DNA of 64,000 nt from Xenococcus sp. PCC 7305 (GTDB taxonomy: Bacteria; Cyanobacteriota; Cyanobacteriia; Cyanobacteriales; Xenococcaceae): the NCBI RefSeq assembly GCF_000332055.1, contig NZ_ALVZ01000220.1, positions 1 through 64,000 of the forward strand, given 5' to 3'. A program made the position numbers and the translations under genes. A model generated the notes under the pieces. It was not told where the DNA came from. It worked only from the letters and a program-made list of their open reading frames with translations, and ran no database searches. How positions within the stretch are numbered: the stretch's first letter is position 1; each line of letters starts with the position of its first letter. Positions 4,183 to 55,699 of this stretch are shown one piece after another.

Positions 4183-4254
4183 GTAGTAATTTAAGTAACG
4201 GTGCGAGATCCACTCTCGTAAAATCTGTTTTGGTACTGCTGAATCCGGATATGA

Positions 4255-4301
4255 ATTTGTCTCGCGCAAAGACGCAAAGACGCAAAGGAAGAAGCAAAGA
4301 A
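4255..4301 (+). repeat. Dispersed repeat, TCTCGCGCAAAGACGCAAAG family
   Basis: The core TCTCGCGCAAAGACGCAAAG is followed by further GACGCAAAG-like units. Related copies occur at 36944-36992 (decayed), 37434-37477 (reverse) and 45902-45980 (reverse, interrupted). It lies 70 bases after the SNF2 stop codon. It is an intergenic repeat with no coding capacity. Confidence 0.7.
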
Positions 4302-4359
4302 GATTAGTCTAAATATTTTTTTATGTTTTAAAGCATCATCTTAACCTATCACCTAGAAG

Positions 4360-5376
4360 TTAGCTTTCAACGTCATTATCAGGAGGCAACATATAGTAAA
4401 CAGGCGGACGATAGAAAGGATCATTGCGACAAGCATCGAAAATCAGAATTTTTAGGGTTCCAATGTCCTCTTTAACTATAGGTTTAAAATAGAACTCAGT
4501 ATCAACAGATGCAGCAATCCAAGGAATTTGTTTGTAATCAGTTGAATCACGAACCTTTGGTAGCAACTCTCGAAAAAGCTCAAAGATTTCTACATTCCAC
4601 TTATCTACAAGAGATAGAAAAGCTTGAGCAAAAGGTGAATGCCTGCTGATTCTACTCTTATTCTTCACTGATGCATCATCATTATCATACTTACGCTTTT
4701 CGCCACCACTATTCTTTCCATTTTCATTCTCTGGTGGCTTTTGAAAAAAATCATAGGCAAGATTTCCAGATGCTGTAGAGTACATAATAATGCTGCCATT
4801 ATGCATCGGAGTTTCTTCAATGATCTTATCAACTGGACGGAGAAGAACGTTAAGATCTATTGCCTTGGTTGCAAACTCTTCTTTTTCTGTTAAATTTGCA
4901 TCAACTGGCAAAATATAGTCATGTCCATTAATTTGAGACGCGTGACCTGCGTAATAGAAGAGACCAACACCACCTATACTAAGAATTGTTTGGAAATCAT
5001 CAATTGCTTTCTTTAGTTCTTCAGTTGATGGGTTAATCCGTTTTATGATCTTGAATCCTAATTTTTTCAGGGCTTTACATATTGCTTCAGCATCATTTAT
5101 TGAGTTCATCAGTGGGGGTGTATTTATGTAATCCTGATTGCCAACGACTAGTGCTATACGATCAGTGACGATATTTTTATCAAATGATAAGAATGAATAT
5201 TGAAATAATCCTAAAAAACCACCTGCCCCTGAAATTGCGGCAATAGCAGATGGGTATGTACCTTCAGAAAAATACCAAGCTATTCCCAAAGCCATCAGAG
5301 TTGTTGCAATAGTCCCTGTAATGATTCTGAAGTTGATAAAGTTTTTTAATTTTTTAAGTGATACCATCCATTTCAA
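4360..5376 (-). CDS. Membrane-anchored caspase-like protein with displaced catalytic-Cys strand
   Basis: A 338-residue peptidase C14 (orthocaspase/metacaspase-like) protein. Residues about 17-64 hold two hydrophobic segments that would anchor it in a membrane. The p20-like start is clear: RIALVVGNQDY (73-83), NDAEAI, LKKLGFK, and the catalytic His145 in LFYYAGHASQINGHDYILP. The next segment should be the catalytic-Cys strand, but LLRPVDKIIEETP runs directly into the p10-like NGSIIMYSTASGNLAYD (193-209). The p10 part continues through a charged low-complexity insert (212-245), SPFAQAFL, QIPWIAAS and EFYF (294-297). Only then comes KILIFDACRNDPF (309-321, Cys316), 22 residues before the end. 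Both catalytic residues are present but in a non-standard order. It is opposite in strand to its neighbours and probably arrived with the adjacent toxin-antitoxin pair. Activity is unproven. Confidence 0.85.
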   Translation of the reverse strand: MKWMVSLKKLKNFINFRIITGTIATTLMALGIAWYFSEGTYPSAIAAISGAGGFLGLFQYSFLSFDKNIVTDRIALVVGNQDYINTPPLMNSINDAEAICKALKKLGFKIIKRINPSTEELKKAIDDFQTILSIGGVGLFYYAGHASQINGHDYILPVDANLTEKEEFATKAIDLNVLLRPVDKIIEETPMHNGSIIMYSTASGNLAYDFFQKPPENENGKNSGGEKRKYDNDDASVKNKSRISRHSPFAQAFLSLVDKWNVEIFELFRELLPKVRDSTDYKQIPWIAASVDTEFYFKPIVKEDIGTLKILIFDACRNDPFYRPPVYYMLPPDNDVES

Positions 5377-5508
5377 TATTATTTGAAGGATATCTAACTA
5401 TTTATTATGCGAAAAGTTGCTAGACATATGGGGCTAATTCTAACAAATTTTGAGTAAGATAAAATTATAGTCAGACTAGGTCAAACTACTTTACTTTCAA
5501 AACAAGTA

Positions 5509-5745
5509 ATGAAAATATATTCTGTCACCGATGCTAAAGCTAAATTTTCTCAAGTAGTAGAGAGTGTTTTACAAGGAGAGGAGGTTATAGTCACAAAAAT
5601 GGGAAAACCAGCCGTTACAATATCTGCTTATGAACCCATTGCTGAAAACAAAAGATTAGGCTTAATGAAGGGACAAGCTACAATACCTGATGATTTTGGC
5701 GAATGGAATGAGGAAGAAGCAAAATTGTTGGGAATCATCGAATAG
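5509..5745 (+). CDS. Type II antitoxin, Phd/YefM family
   Basis: A 78-residue antitoxin whose N-terminus (MKIYSVTDAKAKFSQVVESV ... GEEVIVTKMGKPAVTI) is the DNA-binding Phd/YefM fold. The C-terminal tail would wrap the toxin. The toxin ATG lies one base beyond the antitoxin stop codon, so the two are probably translationally coupled. Upstream, TAGTCAGACTA (5468-5478) is a small inverted repeat that could be part of an autoregulatory operator; this is inferred from how the family usually works. Confidence 0.92.
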   Translation: MKIYSVTDAKAKFSQVVESVLQGEEVIVTKMGKPAVTISAYEPIAENKRLGLMKGQATIPDDFGEWNEEEAKLLGIIE

Positions 5746-5746
5746 G

Positions 5747-6124
5747 ATGAAGTATTTGCTTGATACTCATAGTTTACTCTGGGCAGTTTTTGAACCAGAT
5801 AAACTCTCAACAAAAGCTCAAAAAATCATATCTGATCAAAATAATATTATTTGTGTCAGTTTAATCTCTCTTTGGGAAATTAGTATTAAACAAAATATTG
5901 GTCGTTTAGACATCCCAAAAGGGTTTTTTGAGGTTGTACGAGAAGGAGGATTTGAAATGCTTTCTCTGACTATTCCTCAAATCCAACAATATCGAACATT
6001 ACCTTTGCATCATCGAGATCCTTTTGATCGAATATTAGTTGTTCAAGCAAGACAGCAAAAACTAATTTTGATTACTCGGGATTCAGAAATTAGTAAGTAC
6101 GATGTCAAGATAGTTAAAGCCTAA
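5747..6124 (+). CDS. PIN-domain RNase toxin (VapC-like)
   Basis: A 125-residue PIN-domain ribonuclease, the toxin partner of the Phd-like antitoxin. Visible motifs are MKYLLDTHSLLWA (first acidic residue, Asp6), SLWEISIKQ (conserved Glu), HHRDPFDRILVVQA (third acidic site) and LITRDSEISKY at the C-terminus. I start it at 5747 because the family begins exactly at MKYLLDTH; the longer frame from 5690 only overlaps the antitoxin. Mixing a Phd-type antitoxin with a PIN toxin is common in cyanobacteria. It is expected to cleave RNA when antitoxin is lost. Confidence 0.92.
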   Translation: MKYLLDTHSLLWAVFEPDKLSTKAQKIISDQNNIICVSLISLWEISIKQNIGRLDIPKGFFEVVREGGFEMLSLTIPQIQQYRTLPLHHRDPFDRILVVQARQQKLILITRDSEISKYDVKIVKA

Positions 6125-6158
6125 ATATGCGATTTGTTTTTTATTCTTAAGTTAAACT

Positions 6159-50398: not shown

Positions 50399-53300
50399 CT
50401 AATTTGGCGTGGGTGGACTATAGAGACAATATCGATTCCGACCCTGCCGTTTAGCCATATATAAGGCTGCATCGGCCTCGCCAACCATCTGCTTGCAGTC
50501 GTGACCTGGGGTCGGTATTTGATAGGTTAGTCCTATGCTGATGGTAAGGAAGGGACTAACCTCTGACTTTTCATGGGCAATTTGAAACTGCTGGAGTTCA
50601 TCTTGAATCCGTTTTGCGATCGCGCTTGCTCCTTCAAAATCTGTATTGGGCAGAACAACAACAAACTCCTCACCACCATAGCGAGCTACCAAATCAGCAG
50701 GTCGCTTAACAGCCTGTTTCGCTGCTTGGGCTACCTTCACTAAACAATCATCTCCAGCCTGATGCCCATAGTGATCGTTATAGCGTTTGAAAAAATCCAC
50801 ATCGAATAAAATCAGGGACAATGACTTCTGCTCTCGGAGCATTCGCTTCCATTCTCTAGCTAAATATTCATCAAAATAGCGTCGATTAGCAAGCTTGGTT
50901 AACCCGTCTAGATTTGCCAAACGCTCTAGTTCTTGATTGGCATTCTGAAGTTCTTTTGTCCGTTCCTCAACCTTTTTTTCTAGGGTATGGCTGTAATCTT
51001 CTAATTTTGCGTAGAGACGTGAATTTTCAATGGAAACTGCGGCTTGCGCTGAGAGTATCCTTAAAATTTCAACTCGCTCTGAAGTAAAAGCTCCTGTCGT
51101 CAGGTTATTTTCTAAATAGATAATGCCATTGAGTTTCCCCTGATTCAGCAAAGGTGCGCAGAGAACAGATTTAGTTTGGGTAGCAACAATATAGGGATCG
51201 CCTATAAATTTACTCTCAAAAGCTGCGTTTTTCAAGACTAGGCTTTCCTGAGTGCGCAGAACATAGTTAACAATAGATGTAGAAAGATGCGTGAGTTGTG
51301 TCGCCGCATTAATTGCATCTATGGGAATTGACTGCAAGATCTTAACTTCCTCTGAATCGGCAACCCCTGCCGCTTCAATGACCCAAGCATCAGGCTCTAT
51401 ACCTTCTCTGATTAATGGCAAAATCAGGATTCCGGTTTGTGCGCCAGCATTTTCAATCAAAATCTTCATTAAATTGGCGAGTAATTTATCCAGGACGATT
51501 TCGCTAGCTAATGCTTGGGATGCTTTAATAACAGTTGTCAAGTCTAGAACGCTAGAATTGCTCTCAGAAGAGATGTTACTAGTGGATTGAATTTCTTGTT
51601 TTGTGGTAGTAAATGCTCTAGAGAGTAACTGGGGATATTTCTTTTCCAAATCCTCTACTTTGCGTTGCGCTCCCCAGAGTTGGTAGCCATAGTGAGCCTT
51701 CTTTAGATAAAGCTGGGCAAATTCCTCTTTCCCATGGATTAACCAGAACTTGGCTGCTAGTTCATTGGCTAAGGCTTCATTTTGGATAAATTTATTTTCC
51801 GCAGCAGAGGCAATAGCGCGATCATACAATTCCATTGCTTCTAAATCTTGGCCTGCAACTCTCGCAATTTCAGCTTCGACTAGAAGATACCTATGGAGAA
51901 AATTTTCTGGGCAATTGTCAGCCCAAATTTTCATTTGCTTCTGATTACTTTCTATCTTGCTCCAATATGCTTGTTGCTCCGGGGCAGTAGCGCTAGAATA
52001 GATAGCCACTGAACTAAGTGAGGCATAATAATTTTGATCCGCTTCTGCTACCATACCCCGAATTAAAGAAAGTATCTTTTTGGCCTTAGTTGAGTATTCA
52101 AGGGCTAAATTATATTGATGAAAAAGATAGTGAGTATAGGATTTGCAGATATAGTAATAACAAAGAGAGAAGTCATTTTTTTGCAATTGACAATTTTCAA
52201 GGTATTTTTCCTCCGTTATTTCCTGCTGAACCAAAGAATGTTGAACATGAGTTTTACCGATTAAGTTAACTATTGTGAGTTGATAGGCAAATAATGTATC
52301 GTACGCCAAAATATTCTTGGGTTGACTAGCAAATAATAGAGAGTTGGGAATAACAGCCAGAAGATCTTGTAGATTTTTACCTTCAAAAAACCCATGCACT
52401 ACTTGGGAATGTAAGATATAACCTACAAATTGTATTTCCCCAGATTCCAAACCCACCTTATAACCTTCATCATTGATAGCTTGAGCATATTTGCTATGTT
52501 TAATCCAATGAATAATATGATTCGCTAGCATGTTACAGGCTTTACACTTGTTCGCTAAATCGTTAAACCTCTCACTAATTTTCAGACCCACCAATCCAAA
52601 TTCATAAGCTGATTGATAATCATCCAAACGGGATAACAATGTCGTTGCGTAAGACCCATAAGCCATTGCTGACTCTGGATGAGCACCATATTGAAAAGAA
52701 ATATTGGCGCTTTTGCTACAAATTAAACCAAATAAATCTTGATTCAAAACATAAGCCGGCGTCAGCAGATTTTTAAGCAATTTTATGGCTATTTTTTTTT
52801 CAGGAATAACCATTTCTGGAGCATCACTTAGGGAAATAATGGGCTTGTCTCCCAAATTAGCCTTGGCTTCAATAAGTTCTTGGTTTAGTGCATCCAACCA
52901 ATTATCTTTCGGTAAATCAATGCCAAGTAGTTTTAGGGCCTTGCGCCCAGCTTCAATGGCTTCTAGGTACTCTCCAAGCATGGTATAGAGCAGAACCAGA
53001 AAACTGTAAGTGTCAGCCTTTTCAATGGATGACCTTGCTTTTTCCAAGAGAAGCATAATCAAAAATTCAGCCTGCTCATAATTACCATTTAAATATTCAA
53101 GCTCTGACTTTTCTTGGGTTAGTTTAAAGGTGAGTTCATAATTTTCAGCCCAGCTATTTTTGCTGAGATATTCCATTCCTATAGTCACATATTGCAGCGC
53201 AGCGGCGTAAGCTGTAGCTTGTTTCGCTTTTTGACCAGCTTCTAAATTCAATGTTAGTAGTTCTGTTTGTTCTCGCGCATCGGCAATCAGCTCTCGACCC

Positions 53301-55699
53301 ATATTGAGATGGTCTACTAATTCAAACAGCCTTGTCAAACGCTGTTGTGCGGAGAGATTCGCCAGCAAAAGTCTTCCTATTTGAAGGTGAATCGGTTTTT
53401 TTATATTTTCCTCAATCAAAGCATAAGCTGCTTGTTGAATGCGATCGTGACTAAATTTATAATCTTGAATTAATAAATCTTCGTCTAACTCTGAGATGGT
53501 TAGAATTAACCCTGATTGAACTGCTGGCAAAAGATGTTGGAAAACTTCTGAGGTGGATTGTTCACAAATGATAGATAAAGTCCTTAAGTCAAAAGATGCA
53601 CCGACACAAGCCGCTAAACGTAAAGCTCGCTGGGTGGGTGATGGTAGTCGCTTAACTTTGCTAATCATCAACTCCACTACATTATCTGTGATGTCCATGG
53701 CTTTAATTTGAGCTATGTCCCATTGCCAACAGAGACGATCAAAATCAAACTTGAGCAGATTTTCAAGATGGAGAGTTTTCAGAAATTGATTAACAAAAAA
53801 AGGATTTCCTCTAGTTTTGGACATCACCAATTCTGCTAGGGGTTGCACCGATAGGCGAGCAGCAAAGCTGTCACTACCGCGAGACCTTTCGGTAGGCACT
53901 GCGCGATCAGCAAAGCTGTCACTACCGCGAGACCTTTCGGTAGGCACTGCGCGATCAGCAAAGCTGTCACTACCGCGATCGCAATATAGGGTCTCAGCAA
54001 GGATTTGAACCACACTATCGAGTGCTAAAGGTGCTAGGGTAATTTGATTTATAATGACCGCTTGCTTTTGCAACTCCTTAAGAGTAATCGTCAGGGGATG
54101 GTTAGAACTGACTTCATTATCCCGATAGGCTCCAATCAGAAACAGATATTGCGTGTCATTATCGGTCACCATCAGTTCTATCAACTTGAGAGTAGCCGAA
54201 TCGACCCATTGTAAATCATCTAAAAAGATTACCAAAGGATGTTCTTGGTTGCAAAATACTCGGATGAAATTGCCAAATACAAGATTAAAACGATTTTGCG
54301 ACTCGATTGGGCCTAAAGATGACACTGCTGACTGCTTGCCGATAATCAATTCCACTTCAGGAATAACATCAATGATCACTTGCGCGTTTGCTCCAAGAGC
54401 TGCTAAAAGTTTTTCTCTCCATTGGTTAAGGCTTTCCGAATTTTCAGTTAACAGTTGGGTTACCAATCCTTGAAAAGCAGAGGCTATAGCCGAGTAGGGA
54501 ATATTACGCTGAAACTGGTCAAATTTTCCAGAAATGAAATGGCCACGCTTTTCGGTAATCGGTTTATGGATTTCCTGCACCAACGCCGACTTACCAATGC
54601 CAGAATAACCAGCAACCAGCATCATTTCTAATGGAACCTTGTTCTCCGCACGATTTAATTTTCCCTCTAGTTCCTGAATTTCTGAGCCTCTTCCCCCAGC
54701 CGCTACTCTCTCAAATGCTGCTAATAAAGTCTCTATTTCTTGCTCTCTGCCGTAGAGTTTTTGGGGAATTTGAAAATTGTCAGATATATCCTGAGAACCC
54801 AGAGGAAACTCTTCAATTATGCCAGTTGTCTCTAATTGCCTAAGACATTTTTCTAAATCGGCTTTCAGTCCCCAAGCACTTTGGTATCTAGACTCTGCCG
54901 TTTTCGCCATCAGTTTCATAATAATGTCTGAGATGACAGTGGTTCGAAAATCATCATCACCATGCCTTTCTAAAAGTTCACTGGGCGGTACCGGCTGTTT
55001 CGCAATCTGACAATGAACTAACTCCATGGCATCAGCAGTAGGAAACGGTAATTGTTCTGTCAGTAGTTCATAAAAAGTGACTCCCAAGGAGTAAAAGTCT
55101 GTGCGGTAGTCCAGGGAACGATTCATCCTTCCCGTTTGTTCTGGTGAAATATAGGCTAATGTACCTTCCAAAACATTGGGATGTTTGAGGGTAGGATTTT
55201 CGCGAGTCAGAATTGTAGACAGACCAAAATCAATAATTTTTACCTCTTGACTGTCTGGATTAAGGACGATATTAGACGGATTAATGTCTTTATGAATAAT
55301 ATTCGTGGTGTGAATTTGACCTAAGGTTTCGGTAATTTTGATAGCGAGGCGGAGAAATGCCTTAGTTCGCTCCGCAACGCTTTTAGCTTGCGGGAAAAGA
55401 GAGGAATCATTCATCAACTTCTTTAAAGACGATGCACCAAAATCCTCCAGGATGATTGCTAGCGTTCTCTGATAGGGTTCTAAGCTATAAGCTTTGATGA
55501 CTCCATCTAAATTTAAGTTGCGCGTGATTTCATATTCTTGTTTATAGCGTGTCAGTTCTTGTGCTGTGGGATAATCTTGTTTGAGGACTTTGAGAATAAA
55601 GGAGCGACGATCTGACTCTCGACTACCTCGATACACTTCTGAGTTGGCACTTTCATAAATTTTCTCAGTAAGAAGATAGTTGGCAATTACTCGTCTCAT
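50399..55699 (-). CDS. Ser/Thr kinase-ATPase-GAF-GGDEF multidomain signalling protein
   Basis: A 1766-residue protein. Domains in order: Ser/Thr kinase (about 8-280; catalytic loop HKDINPSN near 141, DFG near 158, activation-loop YISPEQTGRMNRSLDYRTDFYSLG); AAA-type ATPase (about 320-600; Walker A AGYSGIGKSALV near 366, Walker B VIFLDDLQW); a long helical TPR-like region (about 620-1380); GAF domain (about 1390-1550); coiled coil; GGDEF diguanylate cyclase (about 1593-1763; active site GGEEF near 1675, I-site-like RPADLV region unclear). Many cyanobacterial relatives end in a histidine kinase; this one ends in GGDEF, so it could couple phosphorylation to cyclic di-GMP. A 48-bp tandem repeat encodes SDSFADRAVPTERSRG units at residues 570-613. 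Confidence 0.95.
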   Translation of the reverse strand: MRRVIANYLLTEKIYESANSEVYRGSRESDRRSFILKVLKQDYPTAQELTRYKQEYEITRNLNLDGVIKAYSLEPYQRTLAIILEDFGASSLKKLMNDSSLFPQAKSVAERTKAFLRLAIKITETLGQIHTTNIIHKDINPSNIVLNPDSQEVKIIDFGLSTILTRENPTLKHPNVLEGTLAYISPEQTGRMNRSLDYRTDFYSLGVTFYELLTEQLPFPTADAMELVHCQIAKQPVPPSELLERHGDDDFRTTVISDIIMKLMAKTAESRYQSAWGLKADLEKCLRQLETTGIIEEFPLGSQDISDNFQIPQKLYGREQEIETLLAAFERVAAGGRGSEIQELEGKLNRAENKVPLEMMLVAGYSGIGKSALVQEIHKPITEKRGHFISGKFDQFQRNIPYSAIASAFQGLVTQLLTENSESLNQWREKLLAALGANAQVIIDVIPEVELIIGKQSAVSSLGPIESQNRFNLVFGNFIRVFCNQEHPLVIFLDDLQWVDSATLKLIELMVTDNDTQYLFLIGAYRDNEVSSNHPLTITLKELQKQAVIINQITLAPLALDSVVQILAETLYCDRGSDSFADRAVPTERSRGSDSFADRAVPTERSRGSDSFAARLSVQPLAELVMSKTRGNPFFVNQFLKTLHLENLLKFDFDRLCWQWDIAQIKAMDITDNVVELMISKVKRLPSPTQRALRLAACVGASFDLRTLSIICEQSTSEVFQHLLPAVQSGLILTISELDEDLLIQDYKFSHDRIQQAAYALIEENIKKPIHLQIGRLLLANLSAQQRLTRLFELVDHLNMGRELIADAREQTELLTLNLEAGQKAKQATAYAAALQYVTIGMEYLSKNSWAENYELTFKLTQEKSELEYLNGNYEQAEFLIMLLLEKARSSIEKADTYSFLVLLYTMLGEYLEAIEAGRKALKLLGIDLPKDNWLDALNQELIEAKANLGDKPIISLSDAPEMVIPEKKIAIKLLKNLLTPAYVLNQDLFGLICSKSANISFQYGAHPESAMAYGSYATTLLSRLDDYQSAYEFGLVGLKISERFNDLANKCKACNMLANHIIHWIKHSKYAQAINDEGYKVGLESGEIQFVGYILHSQVVHGFFEGKNLQDLLAVIPNSLLFASQPKNILAYDTLFAYQLTIVNLIGKTHVQHSLVQQEITEEKYLENCQLQKNDFSLCYYYICKSYTHYLFHQYNLALEYSTKAKKILSLIRGMVAEADQNYYASLSSVAIYSSATAPEQQAYWSKIESNQKQMKIWADNCPENFLHRYLLVEAEIARVAGQDLEAMELYDRAIASAAENKFIQNEALANELAAKFWLIHGKEEFAQLYLKKAHYGYQLWGAQRKVEDLEKKYPQLLSRAFTTTKQEIQSTSNISSESNSSVLDLTTVIKASQALASEIVLDKLLANLMKILIENAGAQTGILILPLIREGIEPDAWVIEAAGVADSEEVKILQSIPIDAINAATQLTHLSTSIVNYVLRTQESLVLKNAAFESKFIGDPYIVATQTKSVLCAPLLNQGKLNGIIYLENNLTTGAFTSERVEILRILSAQAAVSIENSRLYAKLEDYSHTLEKKVEERTKELQNANQELERLANLDGLTKLANRRYFDEYLAREWKRMLREQKSLSLILFDVDFFKRYNDHYGHQAGDDCLVKVAQAAKQAVKRPADLVARYGGEEFVVVLPNTDFEGASAIAKRIQDELQQFQIAHEKSEVSPFLTISIGLTYQIPTPGHDCKQMVGEADAALYMAKRQGRNRYCLYSPPTPN
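53861..53990. repeat. In-frame 48-bp palindromic tandem repeat inside the kinase gene
   Basis: AGCAAAGCTGTCACTACCGC starts units at 53861, 53909 and 53957 (the third partial). Each 48-base unit holds an inverted repeat CTACCG...CGGTAG and encodes 16 residues (SDSFADRAVPTERSRG). The insertion sits in the AAA region at residues 570-613. Confidence 0.9.

Follow-up and report, generated by a model that had tools for sequence, protein, structure and literature searches.

A candidate strand-permuted orthocaspase in Xenococcus sp. PCC 7305 with its catalytic-cysteine strand at the C-terminus

Can a protease of the caspase fold remain an enzyme when the strand bearing its nucleophile is found at the end of the chain? 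This question is raised by a minus-strand ORF at positions 4360–5376 of a 64,000-nucleotide stretch (the window) of the Xenococcus sp. PCC 7305 genome, a draft assembly of 5.9 Mb in 234 contigs. The ORF comprises 338 codons from a TTG at 5376 within a stop-to-stop open stretch of 345 codons, which excludes a frame error, as the first-pass annotation of this DNA had maintained. The TTG is a doubtful start and the in-frame ATG at 5367 a likelier one, with which the catalytic dyad would be numbered His142/Cys313; the residue numbers used here are counted from the TTG. The codon usage score of the gene was 0.69, compared with 0.72 ± 0.02 for the window genes and 0.585 and 0.672 for its shifted frames, and no promoter or terminator was predicted for it above chance. 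The protein gave a weak match to the PADLOC “caspase” entry (E 0.0024), and no defence role is claimed. Hydropathy suggests two N-terminal hydrophobic helices at residues 13–63 (5188–5340, minus strand), borderline with best 19-residue means of 1.57 and 1.38, which are a probable membrane anchor. The protein is most likely a lineage-specific, possibly active strand-permuted orthocaspase. The specific architecture proposed, namely, a membrane-anchored orthocaspase (clan CD, C14, MALT1-like fold) with β4 moved from between α3 and β5 to the C-terminus, is one in which we place roughly even confidence.

The assignment to the orthocaspases was provided by the Peptidase_C14 profile (PF00656), which matched at 98.2 bits against a curated cut-off of 21.4. 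This match was split, with profile positions 2–102 followed by 153–233, and the absent middle of the profile is the portion bearing the Cys strand. Both residues of the orthocaspase dyad are present, His145 in an AGH motif and Cys316 in a DACR motif, and the protein is thereby distinguished from the pseudo-orthocaspases, in which one or the other is substituted. The spacing of these motifs is, however, not that of an orthocaspase: instead of lying approximately 54 residues past the His motif and before β5, the Cys motif lies 171 residues past it and after β6, so that the order of the parts is β1–3, β5–6, β4. This is also not the order of a type III metacaspase, since p10 is not N-terminal to p20, and the immunoglobulin-like domains of a paracaspase were absent from the Pfam matches of the 338-residue protein. 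On the minus strand, the profile and alignment place the β1–α3 part (residues 72–188, with the S1-type Asp95 at 5092–5094 and the catalytic His145 at 4942–4944) at 4813–5163 and the p10-equivalent β5–β6 part (residues 189–300, with Asp209 at 4750–4752, QIPW, and EFYF) at 4477–4812. Between them, at 4812–4813, the alignment places the first junction, KIIEE/TPMHNGS, which is the site of β4 and the L2 loop in the relatives. The C-terminal tail (residues 302–338), carrying the relocated β4 TLKILIFDACRNDPFYR, Asp314, and Cys316 (4429–4431), occupies 4363–4473 on the same strand, as determined by BLAST, a pattern count, and AlphaFold.

The relocation itself was most directly visible in a 23-row alignment of the query and 22 relatives. 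The query tracks the relatives from β1 via His145 to α3, shows a clean gap between residues 185 and 194 opposite their β4 and L2 loop, where all 22 carry NIVILDACRxNPF followed by the loop, and past this gap realigns with them through β5 (GSIIMYSTASG), Asp209, α4–α5, QIPW, and EFYF. The Cys strand TLKILIFDACRNDPF is present once, at residues 307–321 (DACRNDPF being residues 314–321), 17 residues short of the C-terminus. The best BLAST matches of the tail piece were the Cys strands of relatives, at up to 75% over 16 residues, and PW followed by DACR..PF at the spacing of the query occurred once in the window, against an expectation of 0.00 in shuffled windows. The split Pfam match, the clean alignment gap, and the single copy at the end bear out the segmental relocation that the first-pass annotation had described. 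The extent of the moved piece has to be narrowed: β4 was relocated, but the RGLA part of the L2 loop was not carried along with it. As this conserved portion was found at neither the old nor the new site, the moved segment would correspond to β4 and a few residues rather than to the whole L2 loop. An origin via recombination at short repeats was also considered, because the end of α3 (TGATAA-GATCATTGAA) resembles the end of the tail (TGATAATGA-CGTTGAA), and was rejected, given that shuffled sequences matched equally in 16% of cases.

The same order was sought in other proteins. The relatives share 29–38% identity with the query across the domain, and among those with readable motifs the Cys motif followed the His motif by 51–65 residues in 151 of 151, and by 74 residues in one further ORF; PW stood between the two motifs in none of the 151, and the part order of the query was found in none of the approximately 150 relatives examined. 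Full-length matches were absent from roughly 800 cyanobacterial genomes (at the genus, family, order, class, and phylum levels), from 72,556 plasmids and 50,697 phages, and from viral contigs and genome contigs, and the p10 part and tail searched alone gave a single weak match. Two plasmid matches whose alignments appeared to extend into the tail (H1 and H6) both proved to be of standard order. A scan of the genome contigs for TGGA..DACR..PF constitutes a poor negative: among the matches listed, every readable one was a standard-order gene in which TGGA occurred by chance. In open-access papers, no natural permuted orthocaspase, metacaspase, or caspase fold was found, in agreement with the initial statement that no family with this order had been described. 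The gene is an orphan, a single protein so far and not a family, and the His–p10–Cys order appears so far to be new for the caspase family, known from one example. Surveys using a profile that orders p20 and p10 would miss such proteins, and others may have been overlooked.

Could such a chain still fold as a caspase? The caspase sheet is described as “2 up 1 up 3 up 4 up 5 up 6 down,” and the catalytic His and Cys sit at the tips of β3 and β4 (PMC4357240). It follows from this topology that the end of α3 and the start of strand 5 lie on one side of the sheet, and that strand 6 finishes on the side from which strand 4 sets out, one strand removed. The chain would therefore pass directly from α3 into β5 and return from the foot of the down-running β6, under β5, into β4, with the sheet 2-1-3-4-5-6 forming within one chain and Cys316 placed beside His145; the links KPIVKEDIG (nine residues) and EETPMHNG should be long enough for this rethreading. 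Structure prediction built a strand at 307–317, although the model had only moderate confidence in it. With an alignment of full-length relatives, AlphaFold scored most of the core at a pLDDT above 85 and placed a strand at 307–317 with a pLDDT of about 70, the tail having no supporting homologue residues, whereas an alignment of homologues covering p20 and the Cys strand, in which the Cys strands of relatives were matched to the tail and no p10 relatives were included, resulted in a poor model with the tail below 50. Among the fold matches of the AlphaFold model, MALT1 structures ranked best, with a TM of 0.75 for the caspase-only chain 3v4o. Of the solved structures, the human paracaspase MALT1 is also the nearest in sequence (E 9.9e-15); unlike the query, it has the standard, unpermuted order and carries immunoglobulin-like and death domains.

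His145, Cys316, and three acidic S1-type positions (Asp95, Asp209, and Asp314) are kept. On the basis of the alignment, the dyad would correspond to His415 and Cys464 of MALT1, and Asp95, Asp314, and Asp209 to MALT1 Asp365, Asp462, and Glu500, which line the Arg pocket of that protease (PMC4357240). Counted against function, the Gly after the catalytic His, whose MALT1 counterpart contacts the P1 Arg, is replaced by Ala, as it also is in 7 of the 151 relatives, and only 40 of 56 strongly conserved positions (71%) are retained, compared with 87–100% in the relatives in a leave-one-out comparison, the lowest value of the 23 proteins compared. A standard-order cyanobacterial caspase subfamily with QFDGHNYLIP after the His (L031, L033, and L192) shares oddities of the query, and GHA was seen in two of its members, L031 and L192.

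The low retention of conserved positions would be expected if the rearrangement had broken the enzyme, leaving either a recently acquired, decaying gene or a pseudo-protease with a caspase-like core and another role. The same reading is favored by the protein being a singleton with no close relative, by the position of its gene within an insertion and next to a dispersed repeat, and by the abundance of pseudo-orthocaspases, which make up 28% of 473 cyanobacterial orthocaspases (PMC8283722). Gene decay is the main rival to the permuted-protease reading, but we consider loss of the enzyme unlikely: the frame is open throughout, all five catalytic and S1-type residues are retained, including those on the moved piece, the dyad is usually what is lost first (Tyr/Ser variants), and several oddities of the query (GHA and GHxY) also occur in standard-order relatives. 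That the order arose from a local error of assembly or sequencing, and that the gene in truth has the standard order, is highly improbable. The assembly is a draft of 234 contigs, the gene has been seen in this genome alone, and a repeat about 110 bp long, which is present in many copies and ends many contigs (4228–4338), lies 22 bp past the stop codon, outside the gene. However, the gene and its junctions are unique DNA in this genome with no repeat at either junction, which makes misassembly unlikely, and neither junction falls within the repeat, the distances being about 125 and 475 bp. Since it lies beyond the stop codon, a wrong join there would alter the far side and not the gene, and an artefact would need about 110 bp to be deleted at one point and reinserted in frame elsewhere, with the flanks intact.

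A strand tethered by a short link at the free end of a chain is also the classic setting for domain swapping, in which the Cys strand would enter the sheet of a second molecule and activity would need pairing at the membrane, where the anchor would be expected to increase the local concentration. A swapped dimer of this kind seems to us quite improbable, because, with the strands arranged as published, the nine-residue KPIVKEDIG is long enough to run beneath one strand of its own chain. The pairing raised in the first-pass annotation is thus conceivable but not needed, as same-chain insertion fits that topology. Its other suggestion, that activity depends on C-terminal processing, was not sustained: the same link should allow β4 to be placed within its own chain, and there are no downstream residues that need trimming.

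In caspase activation, the loop joining β4 to β5 gets cut. The permuted protein resembles a caspase in which this inter-subunit linker has already been cut. As its chain stops 22 residues past Cys316 and β4 is unjoined from β5, linker cleavage would not be required for activity. A natural caspase-family protease whose nucleophile strand at the chain end completes the active site, and which is active without linker cleavage, is a tentative reading, for which we see somewhat less than an even chance; such an enzyme would be predicted to have Arg/Lys-type specificity. A parallel is provided by engineered caspases with switched subunits, which are constitutively active single chains (PMC7760212). 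In reversed or circularly permuted caspases (cpCasp2 and constitutively active caspases-3 and -6), as in the query, the chain stops shortly after the catalytic Cys, and they need no linker cleavage for that reason; in these engineered constructs, however, the small subunit lies ahead of an intact large subunit, whereas the query is natural and a single strand has moved. Type III metacaspases of secondary-endosymbiosis algae share a natural reordering of the caspase pieces in one chain, but in them all of p10 stands ahead of a p20 that is intact, and the His and Cys strands stay adjacent, which is not so in the query. These metacaspases were absent from prokaryotes among 11,208 sequences (PMC6426788). 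The nearest known system is that of the bacterial orthocaspases (PF00656), such as MaOC1 of Microcystis aeruginosa, with which the query shares the caspase fold, the AGH and DACRN.PF motifs, and the acidic S1 positions, and from which it differs by the C-terminal Cys strand after β6, the lost L2 loop, and the two N-terminal hydrophobic helices. If confirmed, a natural protein with β4 and β5 unjoined would show how control by linker cutting is lost or replaced, and would exemplify the evolutionary re-threading of a protein fold.

The MaOC1 gene and that of the query both adjoin a type II toxin–antitoxin pair. In Microcystis, this pair is ParDE-like and lies downstream, and MaOC1 cleaves the free antitoxin, releasing the toxin (PMC7935541), whereas the pair of the query is Phd–PIN and divergent: a Phd/YefM antitoxin gene at 5509–5745 and a gene for its PIN-domain toxin partner at 5747–6124, both on the plus strand. 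A link between the caspase and the Phd antitoxin like that of MaOC1 is a fair hypothesis by analogy, with the adjoining antitoxin as the candidate substrate. A single basic pair, NKR, occurs in the antitoxin ahead of its C-terminal part; basic pairs of this type are common in Phd proteins. Together, the caspase gene and the Phd–PIN pair occupy the 1,976 bp (4183–6158) that separate an SNF2 helicase gene from a SWIM-domain gene. A second genome from the same family (G022, L184) has these two flanking genes 38 bp apart, with neither caspase nor toxin–antitoxin pair. By this comparison, 4183–6158 is a lineage-specific insertion, and the caspase gene would have come with, or beside, the toxin–antitoxin pair. 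A further genome (G016, L185) has the same junction with a different gap of roughly 2 kb and a stray duplicate of the SNF2 C-terminus. The dispersed repeat at 4228–4338 contains TTTGCGTCTTTGCGCGAGAC and is REP- or MITE-like; the genome carries 40 or more copies of it at 83–91% identity, many of them within 10 bp of contig ends. Elsewhere in the window, 50399–55699 encodes a 1766-residue protein combining a Ser/Thr kinase, an AAA ATPase, TPR, GAF, and GGDEF in one chain.
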